This document shows, in pieces, positions 24,000 to 38,599 of a DNA stretch of 38,599 bases. Position 1 is the first letter of the stretch; every line of letters begins with the position of its first letter. Source of the DNA: Burkholderiaceae bacterium (lineage in GTDB: Bacteria; Pseudomonadota; Gammaproteobacteria; Burkholderiales; Burkholderiaceae_E); NCBI GenBank assembly GCA_023383035.1, contig JAHDYE010000006.1, forward strand, positions 1-38,599, written 5' to 3'. A program made the translations under genes and the position numbers. The notes under the pieces are model-generated. The model was given only the letters and a program-made list of their open reading frames with translations, made no database searches and was not told where the DNA came from.

Positions 24000-24210
24000 G
24001 GTGATGGCGCGCTTGCCCCCAGGATCTCGCCGATGCGCTGGGCGGGTACGCCGATCTCCTTCGCCAGCCTGTAGTTGCTCATGCCAAGGGGCTTGAGGAA
24101 TTCCTCCGCCAGCATCTCGCCTTCAGCTGCTCCAGTCGGTTCGCTGGCGGTGCGCGCAGGTCCTCGATACGTCGCGCCAGATCGAGCTGTTTCAACTTGC
24201 GCAGCGCCGG
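24000..24210 (-). pseudogene. HigB-HigA toxin-antitoxin remnant with internal deletion
   Basis: The segment is homologous to the intact HigBA module at 37441-38054, in the same orientation. On the minus strand, 24210-24121 encodes PALRKLKQLDLARRIEDLR and on to RLEQLK, identical to the middle of the intact HigB. From 24120 down to 24000 it encodes LAEEFLKPLGMSNYRLAKEI and IGVPAQRIGEI of HigA, in another frame. About 150 bp present in the intact module (HigB C-terminus, junction, HigA N-terminus) are missing at the 24120/24121 join, where TCGCC is common to both original flanks. The HigB N-terminus and HigA C-terminus are also gone. No functional toxin or antitoxin can be made. The homology ends right beside the LysR stop codon. 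Confidence 0.85.
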
Positions 24211-24211
24211 C

Positions 24212-25126
24212 TCATCGCGCCCGCTGCCGCGTGAACCGTCGCGCCACGCTGACGAACAGCGCCGCGAGGTCCGCGGCCGCCGGCGTCGGCCGCGCATCGG
24301 CCCAGCGGATCAGCGACAGGCTGCCGCTACGGGGGCTGATCTCCAGCGGCAGCCGTACCAGCCCGGAGCCGGCCGGCAGCGCCTCGAACACCTCGGCCGG
24401 CAGGACGCCGACCAGATCGCTGCCGGACACCAGTCGCACCAGCCCGGTCAAGGTCTCGCAGTAGACCGGGCAGCGCGGCACGGGCAGCCGCGCACGCTGG
24501 AAGGCCGTGCGCACCATCCGCGCGGAGGAGCCGCTTGCATTGGGCATCACCCATTCGGCCTGCGCCAGTGCGGCGAGCGACTCGGCCTGGGCGAGCGGAT
24601 GGCCGCGCCGGACGATGGCGACCACGGTGCTGCTGATCAGCGGCGTGACCTGGAACTCGGGGCCGAGCCCGCCCGGCAGGTTGATCACTGCCAGGTCGGG
24701 CGTGCCTTCGCGCAGGCCGACGAAACGGTCCGGGAAGGCCGGTGCGACCACATGGACGACCACGTCCGGCCAGCGAGCGCGAAAGCTGCGCATCACCTCC
24801 GGCAGCAGCACGATGGTCGCCAGGTGCGACGCCGCCACCATGATCCGCCCCTCGCGCAGGCCGCGCAGCTGGGCGATCTCCTCCGTCGCCTGGCGGATCT
24901 GGTCGCGGACGATCCGCGCGCGCGGCAGCAGCGTCGCGCCGTAGGCGGTGGGCTCGACCCCGCGCAGACTGCGCTGGAACAGCAACACGCCCAGGCTCGC
25001 CTCGAATCGACGCAGTTGCTTCGTCAGTGCCGGCTGGGTACAGCCGAGCACCCGGGCAGCAGCGGTGAGGCTGCCCGCCTCGGCCAAGGTGGCGACCAGC
25101 GAGAAGGCGGCAGGATCGAGCGACAT
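24212..25126 (-). CDS. LysR-family transcriptional regulator
   Basis: A 304-residue protein. Residues about 1-60 form the LysR winged helix (FSLVATLAEAGSLTAAARVL, then TQPALTKQLRRFEASLGVLLF). Residues about 90-295 form the periplasmic-binding-like effector domain (GRIMVAASHLATIVLLPEVM). The start at 25126 is preceded by GGAG 9 nt upstream; longer in-frame starts exist. It is divergent from the decayed cupin gene and the kynureninase-like gene, the standard position for a LysR activator, and is probably their regulator. Its 3' end abuts a HigBA remnant and may have been altered by that rearrangement. Confidence 0.9.
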   Translation of the reverse strand: MSLDPAAFSLVATLAEAGSLTAAARVLGCTQPALTKQLRRFEASLGVLLFQRSLRGVEPTAYGATLLPRARIVRDQIRQATEEIAQLRGLREGRIMVAASHLATIVLLPEVMRSFRARWPDVVVHVVAPAFPDRFVGLREGTPDLAVINLPGGLGPEFQVTPLISSTVVAIVRRGHPLAQAESLAALAQAEWVMPNASGSSARMVRTAFQRARLPVPRCPVYCETLTGLVRLVSGSDLVGVLPAEVFEALPAGSGLVRLPLEISPRSGSLSLIRWADARPTPAAADLAALFVSVARRFTRQRAR

Positions 25127-28173: not shown

Positions 28174-28190
28174 CCCTACTCCCACTTGAT
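28174..28190. repeat. left copy of guaA-3'-end-like direct repeat
   Basis: The 17-bp CCCTACTCCCACTTGAT matches 37084-37100 at 16 of 17 bases. After it, TTAAG (28205-28209) and ATTGA (28212-28216) recur at exactly the same distances in the right copy. Read on the minus strand, the sequence encodes TIKWE-stop, like the C-terminus of GMP synthase, a known integration site for genomic islands. The truncated end of abiEii lies at this repeat. Confidence 0.5.
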
Positions 28191-28204
28191 GGTTTCCTGT
28201 CATC

Positions 28205-28582
28205 TTAAGTTATTGAAAAAACTAAGATCTTCTTGAAACCGAACAAGAAGCCCTTGATATCGAACGCGATGCCATCGTCCAGGTCGATCGCACGGATCTC
28301 GCGGAACGTCTCGAGCATGGGTTCGGGCGCCGGATCGCCATACCCGAGCAGATCCACGTCGCGGGTGGGGCGGTGCGGATCCTCGAACCATGTCGTTATC
28401 AGCATCGCGCCCTTGAGCACGAAGCGGTCGCGGTGCGATGAGACGCTGAGCCGATGCAGCAGGCGCTCGATGGCGTAGCGCGTCAGCAGAAGGTCGAACT
28501 GTTGGCCCTTCTGCTTCGCCAGATTGAGCAGGCGTGCTCGAACCGACGCACCGATGTCGCGGCGCTTCTTCGGCTCAGGCAT
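28205..28582 (-). pseudogene. AbiEii-type nucleotidyltransferase toxin, C-terminally truncated
   Basis: The 125-residue frame begins as a normal AbiEii/AbiGii toxin: RLLNLAKQKGQQFDLLLTRY, then FVLKGAMLITTWFEDP and RPTRDVDLLGYGD, the nucleotidyltransferase GG/KG and DxD motifs. After DDGIAFDIKGF the family resemblance is lost and the frame ends KKILVFSIT. Intact AbiEii proteins are about 250-300 residues, so more than half is missing, including later catalytic motifs. The truncation lies at the left guaA-like repeat, so the toxin was probably cut off by the recombination that formed this boundary. Its start overlaps the AbiEi stop by 8 nt, the normal abiE operon order. Toxicity is not expected. 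Confidence 0.8.
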
Positions 28583-29198
28583 CGGAGGTCAACGCGGTGA
28601 CGTACGGCTCCATGATCTTCCAGACCTTCGCCTTGACGGCCTGCCTGGCAATCTCGGCGGGCTGCGTCCTCCTTTGCCTCAGGCTCTCGCGCAGCCCTTC
28701 CAGCGCGACGTTGACGCCGACGGTCCGTCGATAGCGGAACAGGTCGGCGACGGTTCGCGCGACGCCGAAGATCGGCACCGACACGCCGTCGATGACATGC
28801 CGCTCCACGTCGTCTGCGAGGCGGTCCTCGGAGAAGCGGGCGAACCGAATGGCCGGATACGCGAGCTTCGGACGCCATTCCTTCAGTCCGATGGCCATCC
28901 AGACCTTCGGGGGGATCTGGTCGGTCAGGCCATGGAAGGCCAGCGCCGACGTGAGGCACACGACACCCTTGGGGACGAGCTTGGAGGCCTCGGCCAGTGT
29001 ATGGTTGGCGTCCAAGGGCACGTCCGGGAGCTGGTACAGCCCGCGGGTCAGCCGCACGATGGCCCCTTCCCGCTCCAGCCGCGAGACGGTTGCCGCGGTG
29101 ATGCCCTGCGCCATCAGCTCGCTCAGGCGAGCCATACCCGTGCCGCGCAGATGCGCGAGGGCAAGATCGCGTTGGCTCAGGGTGCGGCCGGATTCCAC
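28575..29198 (-). CDS. AbiEi-family antitoxin/transcriptional regulator
   Basis: A 207-residue protein with an N-terminal winged helix (SELMAQGITAATVSRLEREG, then IVRLTRGLYQLP) and the AbiEi C-terminal domain (CLTSALAFHGLTDQIPPKVW and VARTVADLFRYR). The length is full for the family. AbiEi neutralises the AbiEii nucleotidyltransferase in a type IV toxin-antitoxin system and represses its own promoter. The start is GTG with AAAGGA about 9 nt upstream. Its partner toxin is truncated, so this antitoxin may persist as a regulator or could protect against related toxins (inference). Confidence 0.9.
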   Translation of the reverse strand: MESGRTLSQRDLALAHLRGTGMARLSELMAQGITAATVSRLEREGAIVRLTRGLYQLPDVPLDANHTLAEASKLVPKGVVCLTSALAFHGLTDQIPPKVWMAIGLKEWRPKLAYPAIRFARFSEDRLADDVERHVIDGVSVPIFGVARTVADLFRYRRTVGVNVALEGLRESLRQRRTQPAEIARQAVKAKVWKIMEPYVTALTSDA

Positions 29199-29206
29199 TG
29201 ATACAA

Positions 29207-29234
29207 ATCCTTTGGGAAGGATAGAAACTATCCT
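29207..29234 (-). promoter_or_regulatory. overlapping inverted repeats, candidate AbiEi operator
   Basis: AGGATAG-AAA-CTATCCT (29218-29234) is a perfect 7-3-7 inverted repeat overlapping ATCCTT-TGGG-AAGGAT (29207-29222). Together they give three AGGAT-type half-sites directly upstream of the abiEi start, and one half-site overlaps the ribosome-binding site. AbiEi is known to repress its own operon through inverted repeats. Confidence 0.6.
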
Positions 29235-29570
29235 AGGTTTTATATCGCGTGTCCACCCCTAGCGGCATGCCGCTGTCGGACTCTCGGGCTGCGACCCGCG
29301 CTTCGTACCGAATCGCGGCCATCCGGCTTTGATCCCTGACGCTTCCGGCCCCTTCAAAGGCCCGCGCGCTGTGCTTGCAGCTGCGTCCTCCCTTAGCGGC
29401 CGCCTCCGAACCTGTGACGGCTGCACTGCCCCGTACAGCTGTCCGTCCCCGGCAATCCCGCCCGACCCTTCCGGAGCCGATCATGTCGAACGAACTCGTT
29501 CTCTACCTGACGTCCCTGGAACCATTCCTCTGCCCCCACTACGGCTTGGAACGGCGATGACGTCGATCTG

Positions 29571-29600
29571 TTGTGACAGAGGTCCATCTCTGCAGATAAA
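29571..29600 (+). promoter_or_regulatory. candidate promoter of the Wadjet operon
   Basis: TTGTGA (29571-29576) and GATAAA (29595-29600) are 18 bp apart. The spacer holds a perfect inverted repeat, CAGAG-6 bp-CTCTG (29577-29592), which could be an operator. It would give a leader of about 230 nt before jetA. Confidence 0.35.
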
Positions 29601-29784
29601 GCGCGTGGTAATTTTCTGACGCGACAACATCAACGAGAGGTCCCGGAATGCAACGGTGACCCGTCGACATCCGCTTCGACGAGGCAAGCTGTCACGCCAA
29701 GCCTGCTCGTCTCGTCGCAGTAGGTGGCTCGCCCGATGAACCAGTCGACCTGAACAATGCCTCTCGCGCTGGTGGCGGATCGTC

Positions 29785-29805
29785 GCCGCCTTCGGCGGCC
29801 TTTTT
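29785..29805 (+). terminator. intrinsic terminator just upstream of jetA
   Basis: GCCGCC-TTC-GGCGGC is followed by CTTTTT. The T-run ends only 34 bp before the jetA ATG. It must either end an upstream transcript or act as an attenuator in the jetA leader. Confidence 0.65.
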
Positions 29806-29839
29806 CCTGCCGTGAGCCTTGTGACAACCGGCCTTGGGT

Positions 29840-31315
29840 ATGAGCAACTACGGCGTTCTGGGACTGTACGACGACCTCAAGACCCTGCGCGAGCAACCGC
29901 ACTGGAAGCTGCTTGCCGCGCACGGTGCATCCGCCGTTGCAGCCAGCCTGTACTGCCTGTTCCTGGATGGTCCTGAACGGCAACTCCCTGCCTCCGCGGT
30001 GCATGAGCGACTGACTCGGCACCTCGAACTGCTGCGAAGCATCGGCGTGGACATGCCACAGACCGCCCAAGGCTACGTGCTGGACTGGCTCGCGCAGGGG
30101 TGGCTGCGGCGCGAGTACCCCGAAGGCGCAACCGAAGAACAGTACGAGCTTACCGCGGACGCCGCCGACACGCTGCGCCACCTGATGAGATTGAACCGGC
30201 CGCGGTCCTTCGCCACCGAGAGCCGACTCACGTCGGTTCTGCAGTTGCTCCATTCGCTGGCTGAGGCGACCGACACCAACCCGGAGACCCGAGTTGCCGC
30301 GCTGTTGGCCGAGCGCGAGCGCATTGACGCTCAGATCGAAGCAGTCAAGGCCGGTCGCTTCAGCACCTTGCCGGTAGACCGGGCGGTCGAACGCGCTCGT
30401 GAAGTCATCTCTCAGGGAGAGGAACTGCTGGGTGACTTCGACAAGGTTCGCGAACTCTTCGCGGAGATCAACCTGCAACTTCGCAAAGATTTGGTCGAGA
30501 ACGATGGCGCCCGCGGAGAGGTGCTGTCCAAGATCTTCGACGGCATCGACGTCCTCAAGCAAACCGATGCCGGCAAGGTGTTCGAGGCGTTCTGGAACCT
30601 GCTTATCGACCCGTTGGCCTCTGCACGATTCGAGGAGGCGCTGCAGCAGGCTGTCGCGCGGCCCTTCGCCGGCAGTCTCAGTATCGAAGAGCGACGCTTC
30701 CTAGCGCACCTCAAGTCACGGTTGGTCGATCACGCGGCCGTCGTCCACGGCGTGCAGTCCAGCTTCGCCTCGGGCCTGCAGTCGTTTGTGCGCAGCCGCG
30801 AGTTCGCCGAACAGCGACGCATCACCAAACTACTGAAGTCAGCACAGCAGGCTGCCCTCGCGGCAGCCGAAGACATCCGACCCAACAGGCGCCTAGACTT
30901 TTACCTCGTGCGCACGAGTGCCGCCATCCGTTCGGCATCGCAGTGGCTGCTGCATGACCCGCTCGTCCGGACGGCGGACACCTCCATGGAATCCTCCGAA
31001 CCTAGCAATCTGCGGCTGGAGGACATCCAGGACTTGGTACAGCGGTCGGAGATCGACGTGCGCACGCTGCGCAAGAACCTCCGAGCGGTCCTGGCAGAGG
31101 CTTCGCCAGTGACTATCGGGCAAGTCCTGCAGCGCCACCCAGCTCGCCAAGGCCTGGGCACGGTGGTGGGCTATCTGCACCTGGCAGTGCGGCACGCAGT
31201 TGCTGCCGAAGGCCGAGAAAGCATCCGCTGGGAAGGCGGCGATGGGACGTGGCGCCGCGCCAGCGCGCCGCTCTTCTACTTCGTCCAGGAGCGCACACAT
31301 GAGCTCGCCGATTGA
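29840..31315 (+). CDS. jetA: Wadjet subunit JetA (DUF3375, MukF/kleisin-like)
   Basis: A 491-residue protein of the DUF3375 family. It opens NYGVLGLYDDLKTLREQPHW, has a long helical middle (residues about 140-330 with ERERIDAQIEAVKAGR and SQGEELLGDFDKVRELFAEI) and ends in a DUF3375 C-terminal wing (VVGYLHLAVRHAVAAEGRES). JetA is the kleisin-type subunit that bridges the JetC heads and binds JetB; the complex extrudes DNA and lets JetD cut circular plasmids. The frame also allows a TTG two codons upstream; I use the ATG at 29840. No good Shine-Dalgarno is present. The gene overlaps jetB by 17 nt, and the order A-B-C-D is that of Wadjet type I. Confidence 0.93.
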   Translation: MSNYGVLGLYDDLKTLREQPHWKLLAAHGASAVAASLYCLFLDGPERQLPASAVHERLTRHLELLRSIGVDMPQTAQGYVLDWLAQGWLRREYPEGATEEQYELTADAADTLRHLMRLNRPRSFATESRLTSVLQLLHSLAEATDTNPETRVAALLAERERIDAQIEAVKAGRFSTLPVDRAVERAREVISQGEELLGDFDKVRELFAEINLQLRKDLVENDGARGEVLSKIFDGIDVLKQTDAGKVFEAFWNLLIDPLASARFEEALQQAVARPFAGSLSIEERRFLAHLKSRLVDHAAVVHGVQSSFASGLQSFVRSREFAEQRRITKLLKSAQQAALAAAEDIRPNRRLDFYLVRTSAAIRSASQWLLHDPLVRTADTSMESSEPSNLRLEDIQDLVQRSEIDVRTLRKNLRAVLAEASPVTIGQVLQRHPARQGLGTVVGYLHLAVRHAVAAEGRESIRWEGGDGTWRRASAPLFYFVQERTHELAD

Positions 31316-32156
31316 CGACACCTCGTCGAGCACCGGATTACCGGGGGACATCCCGCGCTTATTGTTGAAGCCGGAACTGCAAGAAGCGTCCACGGGATTT
31401 TCGGCACTGTCAGCCGTTCCGGAAGAGGTTCCCGGCGACGACATCAAGCTCGATTCGCAGGTTGACCTGCCTGATGACCGGCTGTTTGAGGGCGACACAG
31501 GCACACTCAAAGGCGAAACTCGCCGCTGCCTTGTTGTATTGCTCAGCGGCCCGAGCGTCGACGGGCGGCGCCAACCGGCGCTCTGGCAAGTGCTGGTTCG
31601 AGACCGGCGCGAGCTTCAATCCCGCCTACATGACATCTTTCTCGACCTGGTCGTCGACATCGACCAGCAGGTTGCGTTCATCCGGCAGATCGCGAGCGAG
31701 GATGGCGACAGCATTCCCATCCTCCTCCGCCGCCAGCAGCTGACCTTCATCGAATCGGCTCTGGTGCTGTTCTTGCGCCAACGTTTGACCGAGGCCGACT
31801 CCGTGAACGAACGTGCGGTTGTCTCTGCGTTGGAAATGACGGACCACCTGTCCGTCTTCGAGAAGGCGAACAACACGGATGGCGTGAAGTTCGACAAGCA
31901 GTGCGTCGCCGCCATCGAGAAGTGCAAGCAACTCAACCTCATCCGCCCGATCCGCGCAAGTGACGGCCGTTTCGAGGTCTCTCCTACCCTCAAGCTCCTG
32001 TTCGGCGCCGAAGACATTCAGGCGCTCACCGCGGCGTACGAGACATTCAAGATAGCGGCGGCCGACGATGACCTAGCGAGCCTGGACGAGGCAATCGCCA
32101 AAGGAATGGCTGAAGGTGCAGCGCCGGACTTCGAAGAAGCGCAGGGAGCGGATTGA
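31299..32156 (+). CDS. jetB: Wadjet subunit JetB (DUF4194, KITE-like)
   Basis: A 285-residue protein of the DUF4194 family. Residues 1-70 are acidic and probably disordered. The conserved part has RRCLVVLLSGPSVDGRRQPA, a winged-helix-like core and the late segment LNLIRPIRASDGRFEVSPTL. JetB is the MukE/KITE-like subunit that binds the kleisin JetA. The ATG at 31299 lies inside the end of jetA, and an upstream in-frame extension has no family resemblance. The stop overlaps the jetC start (TGATG), so translation of B and C is probably coupled. Confidence 0.92.
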   Translation: MSSPIDDTSSSTGLPGDIPRLLLKPELQEASTGFSALSAVPEEVPGDDIKLDSQVDLPDDRLFEGDTGTLKGETRRCLVVLLSGPSVDGRRQPALWQVLVRDRRELQSRLHDIFLDLVVDIDQQVAFIRQIASEDGDSIPILLRRQQLTFIESALVLFLRQRLTEADSVNERAVVSALEMTDHLSVFEKANNTDGVKFDKQCVAAIEKCKQLNLIRPIRASDGRFEVSPTLKLLFGAEDIQALTAAYETFKIAAADDDLASLDEAIAKGMAEGAAPDFEEAQGAD

Positions 32157-35100
32157 TGTTGGAGGACACCGACGCCGAGCAAGCTGCCAGGGAGCTTTTC
32201 GAGACTGCCGCGACACACGGTGCCGAGCAGGTCCTGCGCCTCAAGCGTGAAGAGCTTGAGCAATTCAAGCTTGTCCAGGTACAGAGCTTCAACTGGGGCA
32301 CGTTCAGCGGGCACCTCAAGGTTGACGTCGCACCCAAGGGGATGCTCTTCATTGGCCCCTCCGGTTCGGGCAAGTCCACCATCTTCGACTCGCACGCCTC
32401 GCTCCTGACGCCGCCGCGGTGGCTGAACTTCAACGTCGCGGCCCGCGAATCCGAAAGCCGCCAGGATCGCAACCTGGTCACCTACGTCCGAGGTGTGTGG
32501 GGCGAGCAAACCGGTAGTGCCGGCGAGATCTCCGACCAGCAGCTGCGTCCCAGGCCAACTTGGTCCGCAATCGCCGAGACCTACCGCAGCGGCGAAGGCA
32601 AGGTGGTGACGCTCGCACACGTCTATTGGATCCGCACGGCGTCCAACGCTTCGCGGGATGTCGGGAAGCGCTATCTCGTGGCTGAACGCGCTCTCGACCT
32701 GGCTGAGCTAAAGTTTTTTCCCGAGAGCCAGTTCAACGCGCGGCGCTTCAAGACCGATCTACCCGGCGTCTACGACACCGACGCCTTCAGCGAGTACCAG
32801 GAGCGCTTTCGCTCTCGGCTCGGTATCGACAGCGAACACGCGCTCAAGCTATTGCACAAGACTCAGTCAGCCAAGAACCTCGGCGGCCTGACCGATTTCT
32901 TGCGCGACTTCATGCTCGATGAGCCGCGCACTCGTGAGATGGCCGACGACTTGGTTGAGCAGTTCAGCAAGCTGGACAACGCCCACAACGAGGTGGTGTC
33001 GGCGGGCCGGCAGATTGAAACGCTCAAACCCGCGCGGGAAGCGAATGCCGAACGCCAACGCTTGTTGCAAAGGCGTGGCGAGCTCGAAGAGATCCGCACA
33101 GCGGTGGACAACTTCCAGCAGGAGCGCAGGGGCGAGCTGCTGCAGACGGAACGACGCTCCACCGCAACCCTGCTCGACGGTCAGGCCCAGTTGCTCACCA
33201 TCCTGGAGAAGCGAAAGGCAGAGGCGCGCGCTGATCTCGACCTCCTGGTTGAGCAGCGTCGCGGCATGGGCGGCGAGCAGTTGGAACGCCTGGATGCTGA
33301 TCGCCAACAGGCCGAGCAAGAGGCACAGGACCGAGAGGCCAAACGCGAGCGGGTTCGGCAAGCCTGCTCAGTGCTGGGAGCGACCCTGCCGGATGCGCCG
33401 CAGCGGCACGCGGAGCTGGTCGACTGGGCCAAGTCCGAACTTGAGCAAGCTTCCGAGGGAGACGGTGCAGACAGCGCCAAACGATCTGAACTGGCGGTGC
33501 AGGAGTCCGACCTGAATCGCCGGCTCGTTCAGATCCAGACGGAGCTTGCCAGCCTGGCCCGCCTGCAAAGCTCCAACGTTCCATCCCACCTGGCCGATAT
33601 TCGCTGGCAGCTTGCCAAGGCCCTGCACCTGCGCGAAGGCGAGCTTCCCTTCGCCGGCGAACTCATTGAGGTCAAGCAGCCGGAGAAGCGCTGGCAAGGC
33701 GCGATCGAGAGGGTATTGCGTGGCTTCGCACTGTCCATGCTGGTCGAAGAGCGGCTGTACTCGGCCGTGTCGCGTTACGTTGACCAAACCCACCTGAAGG
33801 GCAGGCTGGTCTATATCCGCATGCTCCCGCAGGCGGCACCCGCAGGCGCGCCGAAATCCAACTCGGTCATGCACAAGGTCGTCGTCTCTGACGGCGCGCA
33901 CCGGCAATGGGTGAGTGCCGAGCTGCGGCATCGGTTCGATCTCGAGTGCGTCGAGACCGCCGATGAGCTGCGAGACCTGGCTAGCGGCGTCACTCGCAAC
34001 GGCCTCATCAAGCAAGGAGGTCGTCGACACGAGAAGGATGACCGCTCGGGCGTCGACGACAGGCGCAACTGGGTGCTCGGCGCAGACACCACGGCGAAGG
34101 TCACGGCCCTGCAAAACGAAGCCGACAGCCTCAACGCGCAGCTGGGCGACGTGCGCCAGCAACTTCAGAAGCTGGACGACCGAAGCCGCAACCAGGTCAA
34201 GCGCGTGCGCGCTTGCCAGACGATCTCGGATCATCGCTGGCAGGACATCGACTCTGCCACGCCGGCGCAGCGAGCGCGCGAACTCATTCAGCAGGCGCAG
34301 CAGCTGCGCGACACCAGCCCTGACCTGGCGATCATCGATGCCCGCATCGAGGTCGCCAAGGGACTGTTGACAGCGGCTGAGAAGCAGCACACCGAGCAGG
34401 CCGCGCAGGTGCTGGCGACCTCTCGGCAATTGGACGATCTAGACAGGGAGATAGCCCGCCGCGCTGAGCTTGCGTTCGTGGCCCCCACGCCCTTTCAGCG
34501 CAACGCTTTGGACGAGCGGCTGGAAACTGCCGGACGAACGCCGACATTGGCGACGTTGGCCGACGACATGCGGTTCGTGGATCGCCGTCTCAGCAACGAA
34601 GTGAATGCCCTTGACGGGCAGTTGGCCGACCTTGTGCGCAAGATCGAGGACGCTTTTTCCGCGTACAACCGCGGCTGGCTCGCAGAGTCCGGTGGGCTGG
34701 ACCCAAAGATGGCGAGCTATGACGAGTACGACGCCAAACTCACCCGCCTGCAGATCGACGATCTGCCGCGAGTTGAAAAGAAGTTCAAGCAGTTGCTCAA
34801 CGAGCAGAGCAATCAGCACATCGCGTTGCTGGCCAACCAGATCGATCAGGAGCGCCGCGACATCAGCGAGAAGATGGACGCGGTCAATCGCAGCCTGCGC
34901 AACGCCGAGTTCAATCCCGGCACCTATCTGGTGATCGAGGTCGAGGACCGCACGCCTCCCGAGGCCAAGCAGTTCAAGGCTGACCTGCGTGCTGCCCTGG
35001 CCAATACGCTCAGCGTCGATGACCAGGCGGCCGAAGCGCGGTTCCAGGCATTCAAGGCCCTCATCAAACGGCTGGCAAGCCAGCAGACACCCGACGTCAA

Positions 35101-35566
35101 TTGGAAGACGCTGGCGCTCGACGTGCGGTTGCACGTGGAGTTCATCGCCCGCGAACTGCGGGAAGACGGCACGGAAGTGGAGGTCTACCGCAGCGGCGCC
35201 GGCAAGTCCGGTGGCCAGCGTCAGAAGCTTACCGCCACTTGCTTGGCGGCGGCCTTGCGCTATCAGTTGGGTGGCCCCGGCCGACTGCGGCCGACCTTCT
35301 CGACAGTCTTCCTCGACGAAGCGTTCGACAAGGCTGATGCCGATTTCACCGAAGCGGCGATGAAAATTTTCAAGATGTTCGGCTTCCAGCTCATCATCGC
35401 CACGCCCATCAAGTCGGTCATGACCATCGAGCCGTACGTTGGGGGCGCGGTGTTCGTGCATATCCAGGACCGAATGCACTCCAAGGTCTTGGTGCTGCCG
35501 TACGACGAAGAGGCACAGCGCATCGACTACGGAGTGCTTGACGGGCATGACCATGAGACGACCTGA
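32156..35566 (+). CDS. jetC: Wadjet subunit JetC (SMC/MukB-like ATPase)
   Basis: A 1136-residue SMC-type ATPase. Walker A is GPSGSGKST (67-75). Two long coiled-coil arms, rich in Glu, Arg and Leu, run at about 250-470 and 640-960, separated by a hinge region around residues 490-600 (FAGELIEVKQPEKRW, AIERVLRGFALSMLV). The ABC signature KSGGQRQKL is near residue 1017 and Walker B VFLDEAFD near 1052. All ATPase motifs are intact. In Wadjet, JetC dimers hydrolyse ATP to extrude DNA loops, which is how the complex senses small circular plasmids. The first ATG (32156) follows a TTG codon that is also in frame. It overlaps jetD by 20 nt. Confidence 0.95.
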   Translation: MLEDTDAEQAARELFETAATHGAEQVLRLKREELEQFKLVQVQSFNWGTFSGHLKVDVAPKGMLFIGPSGSGKSTIFDSHASLLTPPRWLNFNVAARESESRQDRNLVTYVRGVWGEQTGSAGEISDQQLRPRPTWSAIAETYRSGEGKVVTLAHVYWIRTASNASRDVGKRYLVAERALDLAELKFFPESQFNARRFKTDLPGVYDTDAFSEYQERFRSRLGIDSEHALKLLHKTQSAKNLGGLTDFLRDFMLDEPRTREMADDLVEQFSKLDNAHNEVVSAGRQIETLKPAREANAERQRLLQRRGELEEIRTAVDNFQQERRGELLQTERRSTATLLDGQAQLLTILEKRKAEARADLDLLVEQRRGMGGEQLERLDADRQQAEQEAQDREAKRERVRQACSVLGATLPDAPQRHAELVDWAKSELEQASEGDGADSAKRSELAVQESDLNRRLVQIQTELASLARLQSSNVPSHLADIRWQLAKALHLREGELPFAGELIEVKQPEKRWQGAIERVLRGFALSMLVEERLYSAVSRYVDQTHLKGRLVYIRMLPQAAPAGAPKSNSVMHKVVVSDGAHRQWVSAELRHRFDLECVETADELRDLASGVTRNGLIKQGGRRHEKDDRSGVDDRRNWVLGADTTAKVTALQNEADSLNAQLGDVRQQLQKLDDRSRNQVKRVRACQTISDHRWQDIDSATPAQRARELIQQAQQLRDTSPDLAIIDARIEVAKGLLTAAEKQHTEQAAQVLATSRQLDDLDREIARRAELAFVAPTPFQRNALDERLETAGRTPTLATLADDMRFVDRRLSNEVNALDGQLADLVRKIEDAFSAYNRGWLAESGGLDPKMASYDEYDAKLTRLQIDDLPRVEKKFKQLLNEQSNQHIALLANQIDQERRDISEKMDAVNRSLRNAEFNPGTYLVIEVEDRTPPEAKQFKADLRAALANTLSVDDQAAEARFQAFKALIKRLASQQTPDVNWKTLALDVRLHVEFIARELREDGTEVEVYRSGAGKSGGQRQKLTATCLAAALRYQLGGPGRLRPTFSTVFLDEAFDKADADFTEAAMKIFKMFGFQLIIATPIKSVMTIEPYVGGAVFVHIQDRMHSKVLVLPYDEEAQRIDYGVLDGHDHETT

Positions 35567-36749
35567 GGACGTCGTCAACTGGGCGCGGCAACGCTACAGC
35601 AACCAGCGCCGGCGATGGTTGGATGGTGCGGGCGAATGGCCGCTTACGGTGTCGCTGGAACGGCCAAGTGAACAGGCGGCGCTTCGAGACCCTGTTGCCG
35701 TTCGGGCCTGGTCCGAGGCTTGGGCCACGTGGACCCCAATGACCACTGATGTCGCGCTGGAAACCGAAGCGGTCGCCTGGCAACGTATTGGGACACAAAC
35801 CCTACCCTGCCGCATTTCATTTGCCACACCAGCATCCGTTGCCCGCCTCATCGGTGAAGGCTCATCTTGGCAGCGGGCCACCGTACGGCGTGTACAGCTC
35901 GTTCACCGATGGCCGCAGCTGGCCGAAGCTGGCCTGGGAACGCACTTCGATGTCTTGGCAAGCTGGCACGACTCGGACTTCGAGAGGCTCGGTGCGCTGC
36001 TGGAGTGGTTCGAGACGAATCCCCGCTCGGGCCTCTACTTGCGCCAACTTCCCGTTCGCGGCATCGACACAAAGTGGATCGACCTGCACCGACGCGGTGT
36101 GGTGTCAGACTTGCTGCGAAGACTTCGGGGAAACGGAATCGCGTCGAGCGATGAGCCGGACCAGGCGACGGGCCCGGACTTCTTCGAACTCTGTGGTCTT
36201 CGTCGGCCCACGGCCAGGATCAGAGTTCTGCTGCTGTCGCCGGAGCTCAGGCGCGCCGCCGGAGGGCTGAGAGACATTGAAGCGCCGCTGGAACAACTTC
36301 AGGCGCTCGACCTAACACCCCGGCGTGCGCTGTTGGTCGAAAACCTCGAGACGGCGTACGCGCTGCCCGATTTCGCGGGGACGGTCGCTTTCGTGAAGCT
36401 CGGCAACGCGGTCTCACTCGCCAGTCAGATGCCGTGGATGACTGATGCTCAGGTGGTGTACTGGGGTGACATCGACACCCACGGCTTCGGCATCCTTGCG
36501 CAGGCACGCAAGACCCTCAGCAACGTCACGTCGGTGCTGATGGACGAAGCGACACTGCTCGATCACCACGATAGATGCGTTCCGGAGCCGACCCAGACGC
36601 GCAATGCCGATGTCTCGATGCTCACAGATGCTGAAGCGGGCGTCTACAGAGGACTCCTCGACGGAACATGGGGACAGTCCCTTCGCCTCGAGCAAGAGCG
36701 GATTGAGTGGCTGTATGGGGTATCTCGGATTTCGCAGGCGCTGACCTGA
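35547..36749 (+). CDS. jetD: Wadjet nuclease subunit JetD (DUF3322/DUF2220, Toprim)
   Basis: A 400-residue protein. The N-terminal DUF3322-type part (residues about 1-190) contains YLRQLPVRGIDTKWIDLHR. The C-terminal DUF2220/Toprim part has the catalytic Glu in LLVENLET (E265) and the DxD in YWGDIDTHGF (D308, D310). The Toprim residues are intact, so nuclease activity is expected. JetD is the topoisomerase-VI-A-like endonuclease that cuts plasmid DNA once the JetABC motor has extruded it. The start is one of two ATGs (35547 or 35553) inside the end of jetC. It is the last gene of the operon; no terminator is evident after it. Confidence 0.94.
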   Translation: MTMRRPEDVVNWARQRYSNQRRRWLDGAGEWPLTVSLERPSEQAALRDPVAVRAWSEAWATWTPMTTDVALETEAVAWQRIGTQTLPCRISFATPASVARLIGEGSSWQRATVRRVQLVHRWPQLAEAGLGTHFDVLASWHDSDFERLGALLEWFETNPRSGLYLRQLPVRGIDTKWIDLHRRGVVSDLLRRLRGNGIASSDEPDQATGPDFFELCGLRRPTARIRVLLLSPELRRAAGGLRDIEAPLEQLQALDLTPRRALLVENLETAYALPDFAGTVAFVKLGNAVSLASQMPWMTDAQVVYWGDIDTHGFGILAQARKTLSNVTSVLMDEATLLDHHDRCVPEPTQTRNADVSMLTDAEAGVYRGLLDGTWGQSLRLEQERIEWLYGVSRISQALT

Positions 36750-37050
36750 CGCGGCCTGGGCAGCTGACTGGGTGTGGTCCGGCGTTTCGTTTGTTTCTAT
36801 TTTTTACCGTCAGCGCAACTCAGCCTTCAGATCGCCCGGAAGCCCGCATGAATGCTGGGCTTCGCGTCCGGAATTTACTGTCAACCTGAAAATCGACCTG
36901 ACGGTAAATCTCTGCCGGCAACTCGACGAAGCGATTTTACCGCCAGATTTACCGTCAATTCGCTCGGCATGCCGTCGATAGTCGTCGATAATCCTGAACA
37001 GACATTTCTCTGACAGATCAAGACCTTGCGTAGTAGAAAGCACGCCTATC

Positions 37051-37083
37051 GATAGTCCGCGATAGACGCCGATAGACCTCGAT
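37051..37083. repeat. 10-bp tandem repeat GATAGACNNC
   Basis: GATAGTCCGC, GATAGACGCC and GATAGACCTC follow each other directly, then GAT runs into the guaA-like repeat. Related CGATAG sequences occur just upstream near 36975-36990. Confidence 0.7.
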
Positions 37084-37100
37084 CCCTACTCCCACTCGAT
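37084..37100. repeat. right copy of guaA-3'-end-like direct repeat
   Basis: CCCTACTCCCACTCGAT matches the left copy at 28174-28190 with one difference, and TTAAG (37115-37119) and ATTGA (37122-37126) recur at the same offsets. On the minus strand it reads KKPLMIEWE-stop, resembling the KPPxTIEWE end of GMP synthase. The full guaA gene is not present to its right, so this is an island-borne or relic copy. Confidence 0.5.
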
Positions 37101-37265
37101 CATCAACGGCTTCTTTAAGCCATTGATTCGCCTGTACGACATCTCGAACCTCGCTGGTCTTACCGTCAGATGTACCGCCACTTCGCGCGGCATCCCCGCG
37201 CGCAGCTTCCACCATCGATCGACATCTATCGAGAACAGTCGGCGCGTCCACGATGACCAGCTTTC

Positions 37266-37285
37266 GAGATCTATCGAGATCTATC
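37266..37285. repeat. exact 10-bp tandem repeat
   Basis: GAGATCTATC occurs twice in direct succession. Its CTATCGA core is the reverse complement of the TCGATAG sequences on the other side of the guaA-like repeat, so the two groups face each other across it. A further CTATCGA lies near 37228. Confidence 0.6.
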
Positions 37286-37440
37286 GCTTCGTTGCATCCG
37301 ATCCCGCAGGTGGAAGCAGCCACTCGGACGCTCGAGTCGGAATCGAGAAGGTGCCGGCATCAGATGGCGTAACCTGTTGTTGCATCATGTCTTTCTGGCA
37401 GAAATTTTACCGTCACGACGCTGCCGAACGGGCGCGGCGA

Positions 37441-37761
37441 TCAGTGTGCATCCGCCGTCTGCTCCATTGCTTCCTTCCACGGCCTGATCTTCGCGAGCGT
37501 CTTCGCAAGGCCGGCCTTCGCCACCTCGGTATCGTAGTCCGCCTGCAGGCGCAGCCACCATCCATCCGAGAGCCCGAAGAAGCGGCACAGCCGCAGATCG
37601 GTATCCGCAGTGATGGCGCGCTTGCCGGCGACGATCTCGCCGATGCGCTGCGCGGGCACGCCGATCTCCTTTGCCAGACGGTAGTTGCTCATGCTCAAGG
37701 GCTTGAGGAACTCCTCGGCGAGCATCTCGCCCGGCGACACCGGCTTAAGTTTCCTGGTCAT
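37441..37761 (-). CDS. higA: HigA-family antitoxin (XRE helix-turn-helix)
   Basis: A 106-residue protein with the HigA/VapI opening PVSPGEMLAEEFLKPLSMSN, a helix-turn-helix (YRLAKEIGVPAQRIGEIVAG and KRAITADTDLRLCRFFG) and an SDGWWLRLQADYD tail. HigA binds the HigB toxin and represses the operon. It starts 11 nt after the higB stop, the toxin-first order typical of higBA. Parts are nearly identical to the remnant at 24000-24120. Confidence 0.92.
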   Translation of the reverse strand: MTRKLKPVSPGEMLAEEFLKPLSMSNYRLAKEIGVPAQRIGEIVAGKRAITADTDLRLCRFFGLSDGWWLRLQADYDTEVAKAGLAKTLAKIRPWKEAMEQTADAH

Positions 37762-37772
37762 CTCGTCTTGCC

Positions 37773-38054
37773 TCAGTGATAGTCCACGATCTCGACGTCT
37801 TCGGCGTCGCTTCCCGTCCAGCGAAAGCAGATGCGGAACTGATCGTTGACCCGCACGCTCCACTGGCCCGCGCGATCGCCCTTCAGCTGCTCGAGTCGGT
37901 TGGCCGGCGGCGCGCGGAGGTCCTCGATGCGACGTGCGAGGTCGAGTTGCTTCAGCTTGCGCAGCGCCGGACGCTCGATGTTGGCAAAGCGCGCCACGCG
38001 CCGCAGCTGGGACAGTGCCTCGGTGTCGGCGCACTTGAACGTCCGGATCGCCAC
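37773..38054 (-). CDS. higB: HigB-family mRNA interferase toxin (RelE fold)
   Basis: A 93-residue RelE/HigB-type protein. It contains ALRKLKQLDLARRIEDLRAP, the NRLEQLKGDRAGQWSVRVN core and the C-terminal RICFRW...VDYH, which holds the basic and His residues of this ribosome-dependent RNase family. I chose the GTG at 38054 because a good promoter places the transcript start there; a TTG at 38090 is also in frame but lies in the -35 box. It is followed by higA. The module appears intact and is probably active. Confidence 0.88.
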   Translation of the reverse strand: MAIRTFKCADTEALSQLRRVARFANIERPALRKLKQLDLARRIEDLRAPPANRLEQLKGDRAGQWSVRVNDQFRICFRWTGSDAEDVEIVDYH

Positions 38055-38061
38055 AGGCAGA

Positions 38062-38099
38062 ATAATAACGCAGTGCGTGATTAACGACAAGCGTGATTA
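38062..38099 (-). promoter_or_regulatory. higBA promoter and operator
   Basis: On the minus strand, TTGTCG (38090-38085) and TATTAT (38067-38062) are exactly 17 bp apart. TAATAACGC-AGT-GCGTGATTA (38063-38083) is an inverted repeat with 8 of 9 pairs, covering the -10 box and spacer, and a third GCGTGATTA half-site lies at 38091-38099. The -10 box ends 7 nt before the higB GTG, so the transcript may be leaderless. HigA repression at this site is inference. Confidence 0.65.
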
Positions 38100-38102
38100 T
38101 CG

Positions 38103-38599
38103 ATGACCAGACACGCAGCATACAAGTGGGCGTTCGGGCCGCGTTTTCGCCGGCACTCCTTCGGCTGGCGCTCGCAACCAGCCGTGCAGCGGGTCAGGGA
38201 AGCTAGCGCCGAGATCCAGAAGGTTGCGAGGAAAGACCCGGCATTGGCCGCTGCCGGCGCGGTCCTATTCCTGGAGAGGGTGTCGCCTGCGCTCGAACAG
38301 GTCGACAGTTCCTCCGGCGCCATCGGCACCGCCGTCAATCACGCGATCGAGACCTGCGCGACGATCATCGCCGCCGCGCCGGTCGACGACCGAACGCGAG
38401 ATCAGTGGCTCGACCGGCTCTGGGAAGCGCATCAGAACGACGAGATCCCCTACATCGAACGGCTGGCCGACTACTGGGGCGAGCTTTGTGCATCGCAGAC
38501 GCGCGCTTCTGCTTGGGCCGACAGACTGATTGGCGCCGTCGAGAGCATGTGGGGTTCGAACCGGAAGCCCGGAGGCTACTTCCACGGCACGATCGCCTG
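38103..38599 (+). CDS. conserved hypothetical protein, 3' end outside window
   Basis: About 165 residues are visible, beginning MTRHAAYKWAFGPRFRRHSF, then RDPALAAAGAVLFLERVSP-type helical sequence and YIERLADYWGELCAS. I recognise this as a proteobacterial protein of unknown function, largely alpha-helical, with no signal peptide or catalytic motif in the visible part. It is divergent from higBA and starts 4 nt from the outermost HigA half-site, so it could share that control. Confidence 0.75.
   Translation, partial: MTRHAAYKWAFGPRFRRHSFGWRSQPAVQRVREASAEIQKVARKDPALAAAGAVLFLERVSPALEQVDSSSGAIGTAVNHAIETCATIIAAAPVDDRTRDQWLDRLWEAHQNDEIPYIERLADYWGELCASQTRASAWADRLIGAVESMWGSNRKPGGYFHGTIA

Follow-up and report, generated by a model that had tools for sequence, protein, structure and literature searches.

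The window analysed here is a 38,599-nucleotide stretch from a Burkholderiaceae bacterium (assembly GCA_023383035.1, contig JAHDYE010000006.1), and its right-hand part holds two groups of genes on either side of the noncoding region 36750-37440. The left group begins at a core sequence resembling the end of guaA (28176..28193, + strand), which matches a degenerate core pattern with 0 mismatches and carries TCCCACTT, a divergent form of GAGTGGGA, at 28180-28187. Next come two minus-strand genes: a truncated AbiEii of 125 aa (28205..28582), in which residues 1-110 match a ~300-aa family and are followed by 14 unrelated residues, and an AbiEi-like antitoxin (28575..29198; Pfam AbiEi_4). The rest of the left group is a plus-strand Wadjet system composed of JetA (DUF3375; 29834..31315), a DUF4194 protein that we take to be JetB, a name drawn from established family knowledge (31200..32156), a JetC-like SMC ATPase (32153..35566; SbcC_Walker_B and AAA_29), and JetD (35439..36749). 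To the right of the noncoding region are minus-strand genes for a HigA-like antitoxin (HTH_3; 37441..37762, start codon inferred) and a HigB-like toxin (37773..38090; Pfam HigB-like_toxin). The noncoding region is the recombination joint of two stacked units, one carrying AbiE and Wadjet and the other HigAB.

The noncoding region is dense in short repeats. An earlier note on this DNA, made from the sequence alone, had reported at least eight copies of one motif in both orientations, two pairs of them exactly 12 bp apart, and 10-bp tandem repeats facing each other across a guaA-like core. All three descriptions held up. When both strands were scanned, exact copies of TTTACCGTCA were found at 36803+, 36899-, 36948+, and 37406+, copies with one mismatch at 36874+, 36936+, and 37159+, and a copy with two mismatches at 37171+. 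The copy at 36899 is inverted, and the pairs with exact 12-bp spacing are 36936/36948 and 37159/37171. CGATAGA-type repeats lie left of the core at 37050, 37060, and 37070 (+), in 10-bp steps, and face a set right of the core at 37225, 37270, and 37280 (-); the region holds additional one-mismatch copies of this family. The comparison with shuffled sequence that the note had proposed also came out in its favor: at up to one mismatch there are 7 copies of TTTACCGTCA in 36750-37440, with 0.03 expected from dinucleotide shuffles and a maximum of 1 in 300 such shuffles of the region. The best 10-mer family in each of 40 shuffles reached at most 4 copies at up to one mismatch, compared to the 7 observed. 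For CGATAGAC, of the CGATAGA family, 9 copies were found at up to one mismatch with 0.83 expected, and the count at up to two mismatches is not clearly above that of shuffles. The window’s four exact copies of TTTACCGTCA all fall inside the region, and the rest of the 4.1-Mb assembly has a single exact copy, at C41:1783, with no detectable arm or core in its surroundings. There was no match in an Rfam scan of 36600-37600, in a blastn search of the region against plasmids and phages, or when E. coli genomes were searched by blastn with the left part of the region. A separate GCCCGGAAACCCGCATGNATGCTGG-like element occurs at 36834-36858 of the window, at L102:9902, and at L103:10049; left arms contain it, right arms contain it in the opposite orientation, and it also turns up at loci where no arm was found, so that it may be an unrelated dispersed repeat.

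How are the repeats arranged? The guaA 3′-end-like core lies at 37086..37103 (+), with TCCCACTC, the reverse complement of GAGTGGGA, at 37090-37097. Across the assembly, only this sequence and the one at 28176-28193 match the degenerate guaA-like core pattern with zero mismatches. The left arm (36802..37012, +) contains the five TTTACCGTCA sites from 36803 to 36948 and a CGATAGT at 36976. Between this arm and the core, the three CGATAGA-type repeats (37050..37076, +) are proposed accessory sites of the excisionase type. The right arm (37106..37426, +) contains the TTTACCGTCA-type sites at 37159, 37171, and 37406 and the inverted CGATAGA repeats, as well as a minus-strand sequence at 37116..37128 with 0 mismatches to the IHF consensus WATCAANNNNTTR. 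The split into arms and core comes from a scripted comparison of relatives in which the window was included for profile building; the left-arm profile matches the window at 160 bits (the window being among its 11 sequences) and the right-arm profile at 260 bits (among its 16).

The same geometry recurs in relatives. A blastn search of the region against 300 related genomes gave matches in 56, some of them short and weak. To the right of the core, a TTTACCGTCA-type motif is found at +69 in 65 of 111 cores and at +81 in 55 of the 111; to the left, motifs are found at −276, −204, −180 (inverted), −144, and −132, each in 21-27 of the same 111. The IHF-like site is at +24 in 41 of 68 cores that do not adjoin guaA, with a background of ~0.001 per bin. 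CGATAGA copies within 60 bp left of cores average 0.6-2.5 in the larger core classes, compared to a background of 0.08, and one class without a left arm still has these repeats directly before the core. Thus, the region has arm-type sites at fixed geometry on both sides of a GAGTGGGA core located in guaA 3′-end-like sequence. A GCCCGGAAACCCGC-marked sub-type of left arm was considered as a sign of an integrase-free lineage and was dropped because GCCCGGAAACCCGC also occurs in right arms and at loci without arms. Two further arrangements were observed among the relatives. At L100:9790-10077, a left arm is fused to a right arm with the core missing between them, as if recombination between arm repeats had deleted the core. 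Left of several cores there is a second conserved unit-end of ~220 bp that lacks TTTACCGTCA and ends in a hairpin-like GGGCTG-type palindrome (L086:6014-6267, L086:7268-7524, L087:8055-8307, and L089:9594-9903); this is possibly a terminator.

The left arm is linked to a family of integrases. In at least 12 relatives, it fills the interval from the guaA 3′ end to a tyrosine integrase gene, lying directly upstream of the integrase start. These integrases are 73-100% identical to the copy in genome G013, have an Arm-DNA-bind_3 domain (PF13356) and a Phage_integrase domain, and are 54% identical to the integrase of pAB3. GIsul2 has been reported on pAB3; the same paper places the core GAGTGGGA at the 3′ end of guaA, describes an internal attLR, and demonstrates integrase-dependent excision and integration as well as mobilization of an integrase-free CR2-sul2 unit by the GIsul2 integrase (PMC9376610). 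The core of the region and the integrases of the relatives belong to this GIsul2 type. Upstream of ~70%-identity integrases in Sphingomonas and Acinetobacter, the left arm shows the same spacing of ~72/24/40/12 bp and the same inverted third site, with the motif letters shifted to ATACCGTCA. At these distant loci, the argument is conserved spacing rather than repeat number, because shuffle tests of repeat number are weak there: the observed count was reached in 2 to 10 of 60 shuffles per locus, and the pAB3 test picked up only a poly-A run. An AlpA-family gene follows the pAB3 integrase, and in four plasmid-borne relatives the integrase has a gene of the AlpA family next to it; none was seen directly downstream of int in five Burkholderiales loci inspected by eye. 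Between bacterial families, integrases are 96% identical and guaA genes 76% identical; this greater similarity indicates transfer, and the sequences establish that the integrase has spread horizontally between families. NZ_CP155767.1 (L132), a record of 3,975 bp that was submitted as a Sphingomonas plasmid, consists of guaA, a left arm, an integrase gene, and an AlpA-family gene; it may be a chromosomal fragment that was misassembled.

These comparisons bear on the interpretation offered in the earlier note, which had suggested either the core and arm sites of a tyrosine recombinase or iterons. The former is strongly supported by the fixed offsets and by the adjoining Arm-DNA-bind_3 integrase. 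The search of other genomes that the note had recommended revealed motifs at the same offsets flanking guaA-end cores at many sites, with the left arm upstream of a PF13356 integrase, so the motifs are not consistently distant from mobile elements, the pattern that the note had held would count against it. Its remark that no protein in the window explains the repeats is correct, because the guaA-type integrase is absent from the window. A cognate integrase gene is instead found beside the homologous arm in the relatives. Nor is this integrase among the assembly’s ten PF00589 hits, the best of which has 29% identity. There was also no match to guaA in the source assembly, which is 83% complete and in 479 contigs, so the link between the joint and guaA is by analogy. 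Since neither guaA nor a guaA-type integrase was found in this assembly, the integrase acting at the joint is presumably encoded elsewhere.

The left unit extends from 28176 to 37086 and the right unit from 37086 to beyond the contig end. Positions 37090-38599 are 84% identical to a unit of genome G004, with homology beginning at the G004 core. The core at 28176..28193 is the left boundary of the AbiE-Wadjet unit. The locus therefore has at least two elements bounded by the same core (28176 and 37086), as expected of tandem island accretion and as seen in the arrays of G004 and G210. The left unit does not qualify as a CIME, which has no integrase and keeps both attL and attR: it retains a left arm and has bare cores at both ends, and the right-arm profile found no right arm at 28176. 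A contig of the same genus, G002:C22 (L279), shares a 0.12-kb flank with the window up to CCCTACTCCCACT; homology breaks at the core and resumes inside AbiEii, which is intact there (302 aa) and retains ~110 residues in the window, where 62 bp of unrelated DNA follow directly after the core. This fits a deletion in the window lineage that would have removed the right arm and the end of AbiEii. At the corresponding core of G002:C22, a right arm was likewise not seen. The left flank at 24-28 kb could not be placed beside guaA in same-genus genomes; the contig of its best relative, G010:C198, ends ~0.3 kb past the match. Two features were noted by eye in these flanks. Left of the island, positions 24000-24230 of the window look like a decayed version of the HigA region (37.6-37.95 kb), which hints at an earlier unit of this type. 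At ~2000-2090 of L279, an open frame runs into the core and ends in GELLIEWE*, mimicking the GuaA C-terminus; guaA was not found on that contig.

Longer arrays are present in relatives. For example, G004:C2 has cores at 1268, 6246, 7503, 12719, 17210, and 21587, in addition to the guaA core at 28284, and G210 has three cores. A right arm opens each unit of these multi-unit arrays. Among 22 complete units, which do not include the left unit of the window because its left core scores low, the right arm is present in 22, the left arm in 5, and an integrase in 1; lengths range from 1.26 to 11.1 kb. The loci were found through arm motifs and many span only 8 kb, so this sample favors short units and hides long, integrase-bearing ones. 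Related units are common to different families, with homology starting at the core: units of G004 and G210 are 93% identical over 2.6 kb, and units of G008 and G102 are 95% identical over 2.1 kb. Most unit matches break off within the cargo or where a contig stops, and among the units compared no two genomes were found to share a complete unit, conserved up to both of its ends. An 8.4-kb cargo adjoining guaA is 98% identical between G034 and G069, which belong to two genera (L080:1-8371 and L100:1119-9507), and an integrase is present in only one of the two.

What do the units carry? Several small units have toxin-antitoxin or defence genes. Protein sets from a mechanical ORF picker were compared with PADLOC models at 1e-10: 79 unit proteins, five of them from the window, matched 119 families, and 68 proteins from the other side of guaA at nine loci matched 3. 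These figures count families rather than defence-positive proteins, and many models are near-duplicates, so they overstate the contrast between the units and the other side. The 25 commonest families listed are mostly AbiEi/AbiEii, PrimPol (TOTE), and PbeA. Pfam matches in the cargo include AbiEii (6), HTH_3 (5), RelE (2), PIN (2), AEP-TOTE (2), HigB, and the Wadjet domains of the window. Ordinary cargo is also present (EamA, TctC, and GGDEF), and many cargo proteins have no family match.

Taken together, the region is very probably the complete attachment region, with both arms, of a guaA-specific tyrosine recombinase in the GIsul2 family, located at the joint between two tandem units. The architecture, the fixed geometry, the link to an integrase family, the tandem units, and the unit boundaries at the core are all established at the level of sequence, and the region looks like a functional docking site for the integrase. 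In the proposed mechanism, the N-terminal domain of the integrase would hold the TTTACCGTCA arm sites, IHF-like bending at 37116-37128 would bring the arms to the core, and the catalytic domain would carry out strand exchange within the GAGTGGGA core. The 10-bp-stepped CGATAGA repeats would be bound by another protein, probably an excisionase of the wHTH type, that sets the direction of the reaction; we assign this repeat family to a second protein by inference only. The closest worked analogue of this mechanism is ICEMlSymR7A, whose attP of 283 bp contains an excisionase site and five arm-type sites for the integrase, although its integrase, target, and arm motif (TGKTGGTATC) differ from those described here (PMC11963761). 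All five of its arm-type sites are needed for efficient integration (PMC11963761).

Other functions for the repeats were considered. Iterons, or another replication or partition site, would also consist of clustered repeats in both orientations, and GIsul2 itself carries repA and repC. Nevertheless, we reject this explanation, the chance of which we regard as negligible: no replication gene, and hence no adjacent initiator gene of the kind that marks an iteron replicon, was found among the window proteins scanned; the repeats have a position and spacing that follow the guaA-end core and the integrase; and among viral contigs, a scan for pairs of the motif turned up no site with a matching arm or core. 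This disposes of the iteron alternative in the earlier note. The location of the left arm immediately upstream of the integrase start could mean that the repeats serve only autorepression of the integrase promoter rather than recombination. That is very improbable, given that the right arm has the same motifs at fixed distances from cores without a nearby integrase gene. Arm sites that double as operators would be compatible with the attachment-region explanation.

The origin of the integrase-free units is a separate matter, and the two accounts of it that follow are both compatible with an attachment region at the joint. The units may be products of decay and accretion only, that is, CIME remnants that have lost the integrase and left arm, with the window representing a dead tandem joint. 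We give this account, which concerns the fate of the units, slightly less than an even chance. The accepted route to such tandems is CIME formation and then accretion (PMC5704250), and decay is consistent with the integrase difference between G034 and G069, with the truncated AbiEii, and with the left core that lacks a right arm. However, random decay should erode both ends alike, so retention of the right arm in all 22 complete units, when the left arm is missing from 17 and the integrase from 21, argues against it, as do the recurrence of 1.26-2.7 kb units with an intact core and right arm and the sharing of related units, with homology starting at the core, between different families. This evidence is not decisive because the sampling favors short units and armed loci. 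Alternatively, units consisting of a core, a right arm, and cargo could be non-autonomous and putatively mobile, with a guaA-type integrase acting on them in trans much as integron cassettes are moved; we consider this a reasonable possibility that still falls short of an even chance. It would account for the universal right arm and the frequent lack of a left arm and integrase, for sizes down to 1.26 kb, and for the toxin-antitoxin or defence genes of several small units, and it has a precedent in the CR2-sul2 unit mobilized by the GIsul2 integrase (PMC9376610). On the other hand, some units hold several operons, and a unit conserved at both ends between two genomes was not found. A broader proposal, which we put forward tentatively and judge less likely than not, is that guaA ends in Burkholderiales host a cassette system. 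In this system, a resident integrase of the GIsul2 type, next to its five-site left arm, would take up and reshuffle small non-autonomous units, each made of nothing more than a core, a right arm, and cargo, with toxin-antitoxin or anti-phage genes as frequent cargo. Formally, such a capture would look like attL x attR recombination and would leave a full attP-like joint, as at 36.8-37.4 kb.

Integron cassette arrays combine a resident integrase beside an attachment site with rows of small units, several of which have toxin-antitoxin genes. The arrays described here may be likened to them by function rather than by sequence homology, as a resident integrase with rows of small units; the integrase is of the arm-binding type (Arm-DNA-bind_3) rather than IntI, and the sites are ~320-bp arm regions rather than attC. 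Points of resemblance in GIsul2 are an integrase at guaA, 54% identical to that of the relatives, with the core GAGTGGGA at the 3′ end of this gene, an internal attLR, and an integrase-free unit (CR2-sul2) that the GIsul2 integrase moves (PMC9376610). It differs in that the arm-motif letters upstream of int in pAB3 are not those of TTTACCGTCA, the units here lack sul2/rcr2 cargo, the arrays here have many units with a conserved right arm, and the five Burkholderiales loci showed no AlpA-family gene directly downstream of int. Tandem accretion at a gene end is already known (PMC5704250, PMC3146451). CIME and ICE tandems are likewise stacked elements bounded by copies of a target-gene end, some without integration genes, but CIMEs by definition keep attL and attR, whereas most units here retain a right arm alone, and the smallest measures 1.26 kb (PMC5704250). 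Dehalococcoides has multiple tandem islands at the end of ssrA, not all of which have an integration module; the recombinase there is a serine recombinase, and 16 islands have the six-gene module, compared to an integrase in 1 of 22 units here (PMC3146451). Defence genes also accumulate next to guaA in defence island #13 of Stenotrophomonas maltophilia, for which the available part of the report describes no attachment-site architecture (PMC11680222). The literature consulted, which is of partial coverage, yielded no description of arm-defined, mostly integrase-free arrays at guaA.

What are the implications of this architecture? It provides a concrete grammar of arms and core for a widespread family of guaA-specific integrases. 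In defence arrays without an integrase, the combination of a core and a right arm is a sequence handle by which the limits of each unit can be found. Movement of the units in trans, if it occurs, would represent a second cassette-type route for the spread of anti-phage and toxin-antitoxin genes.
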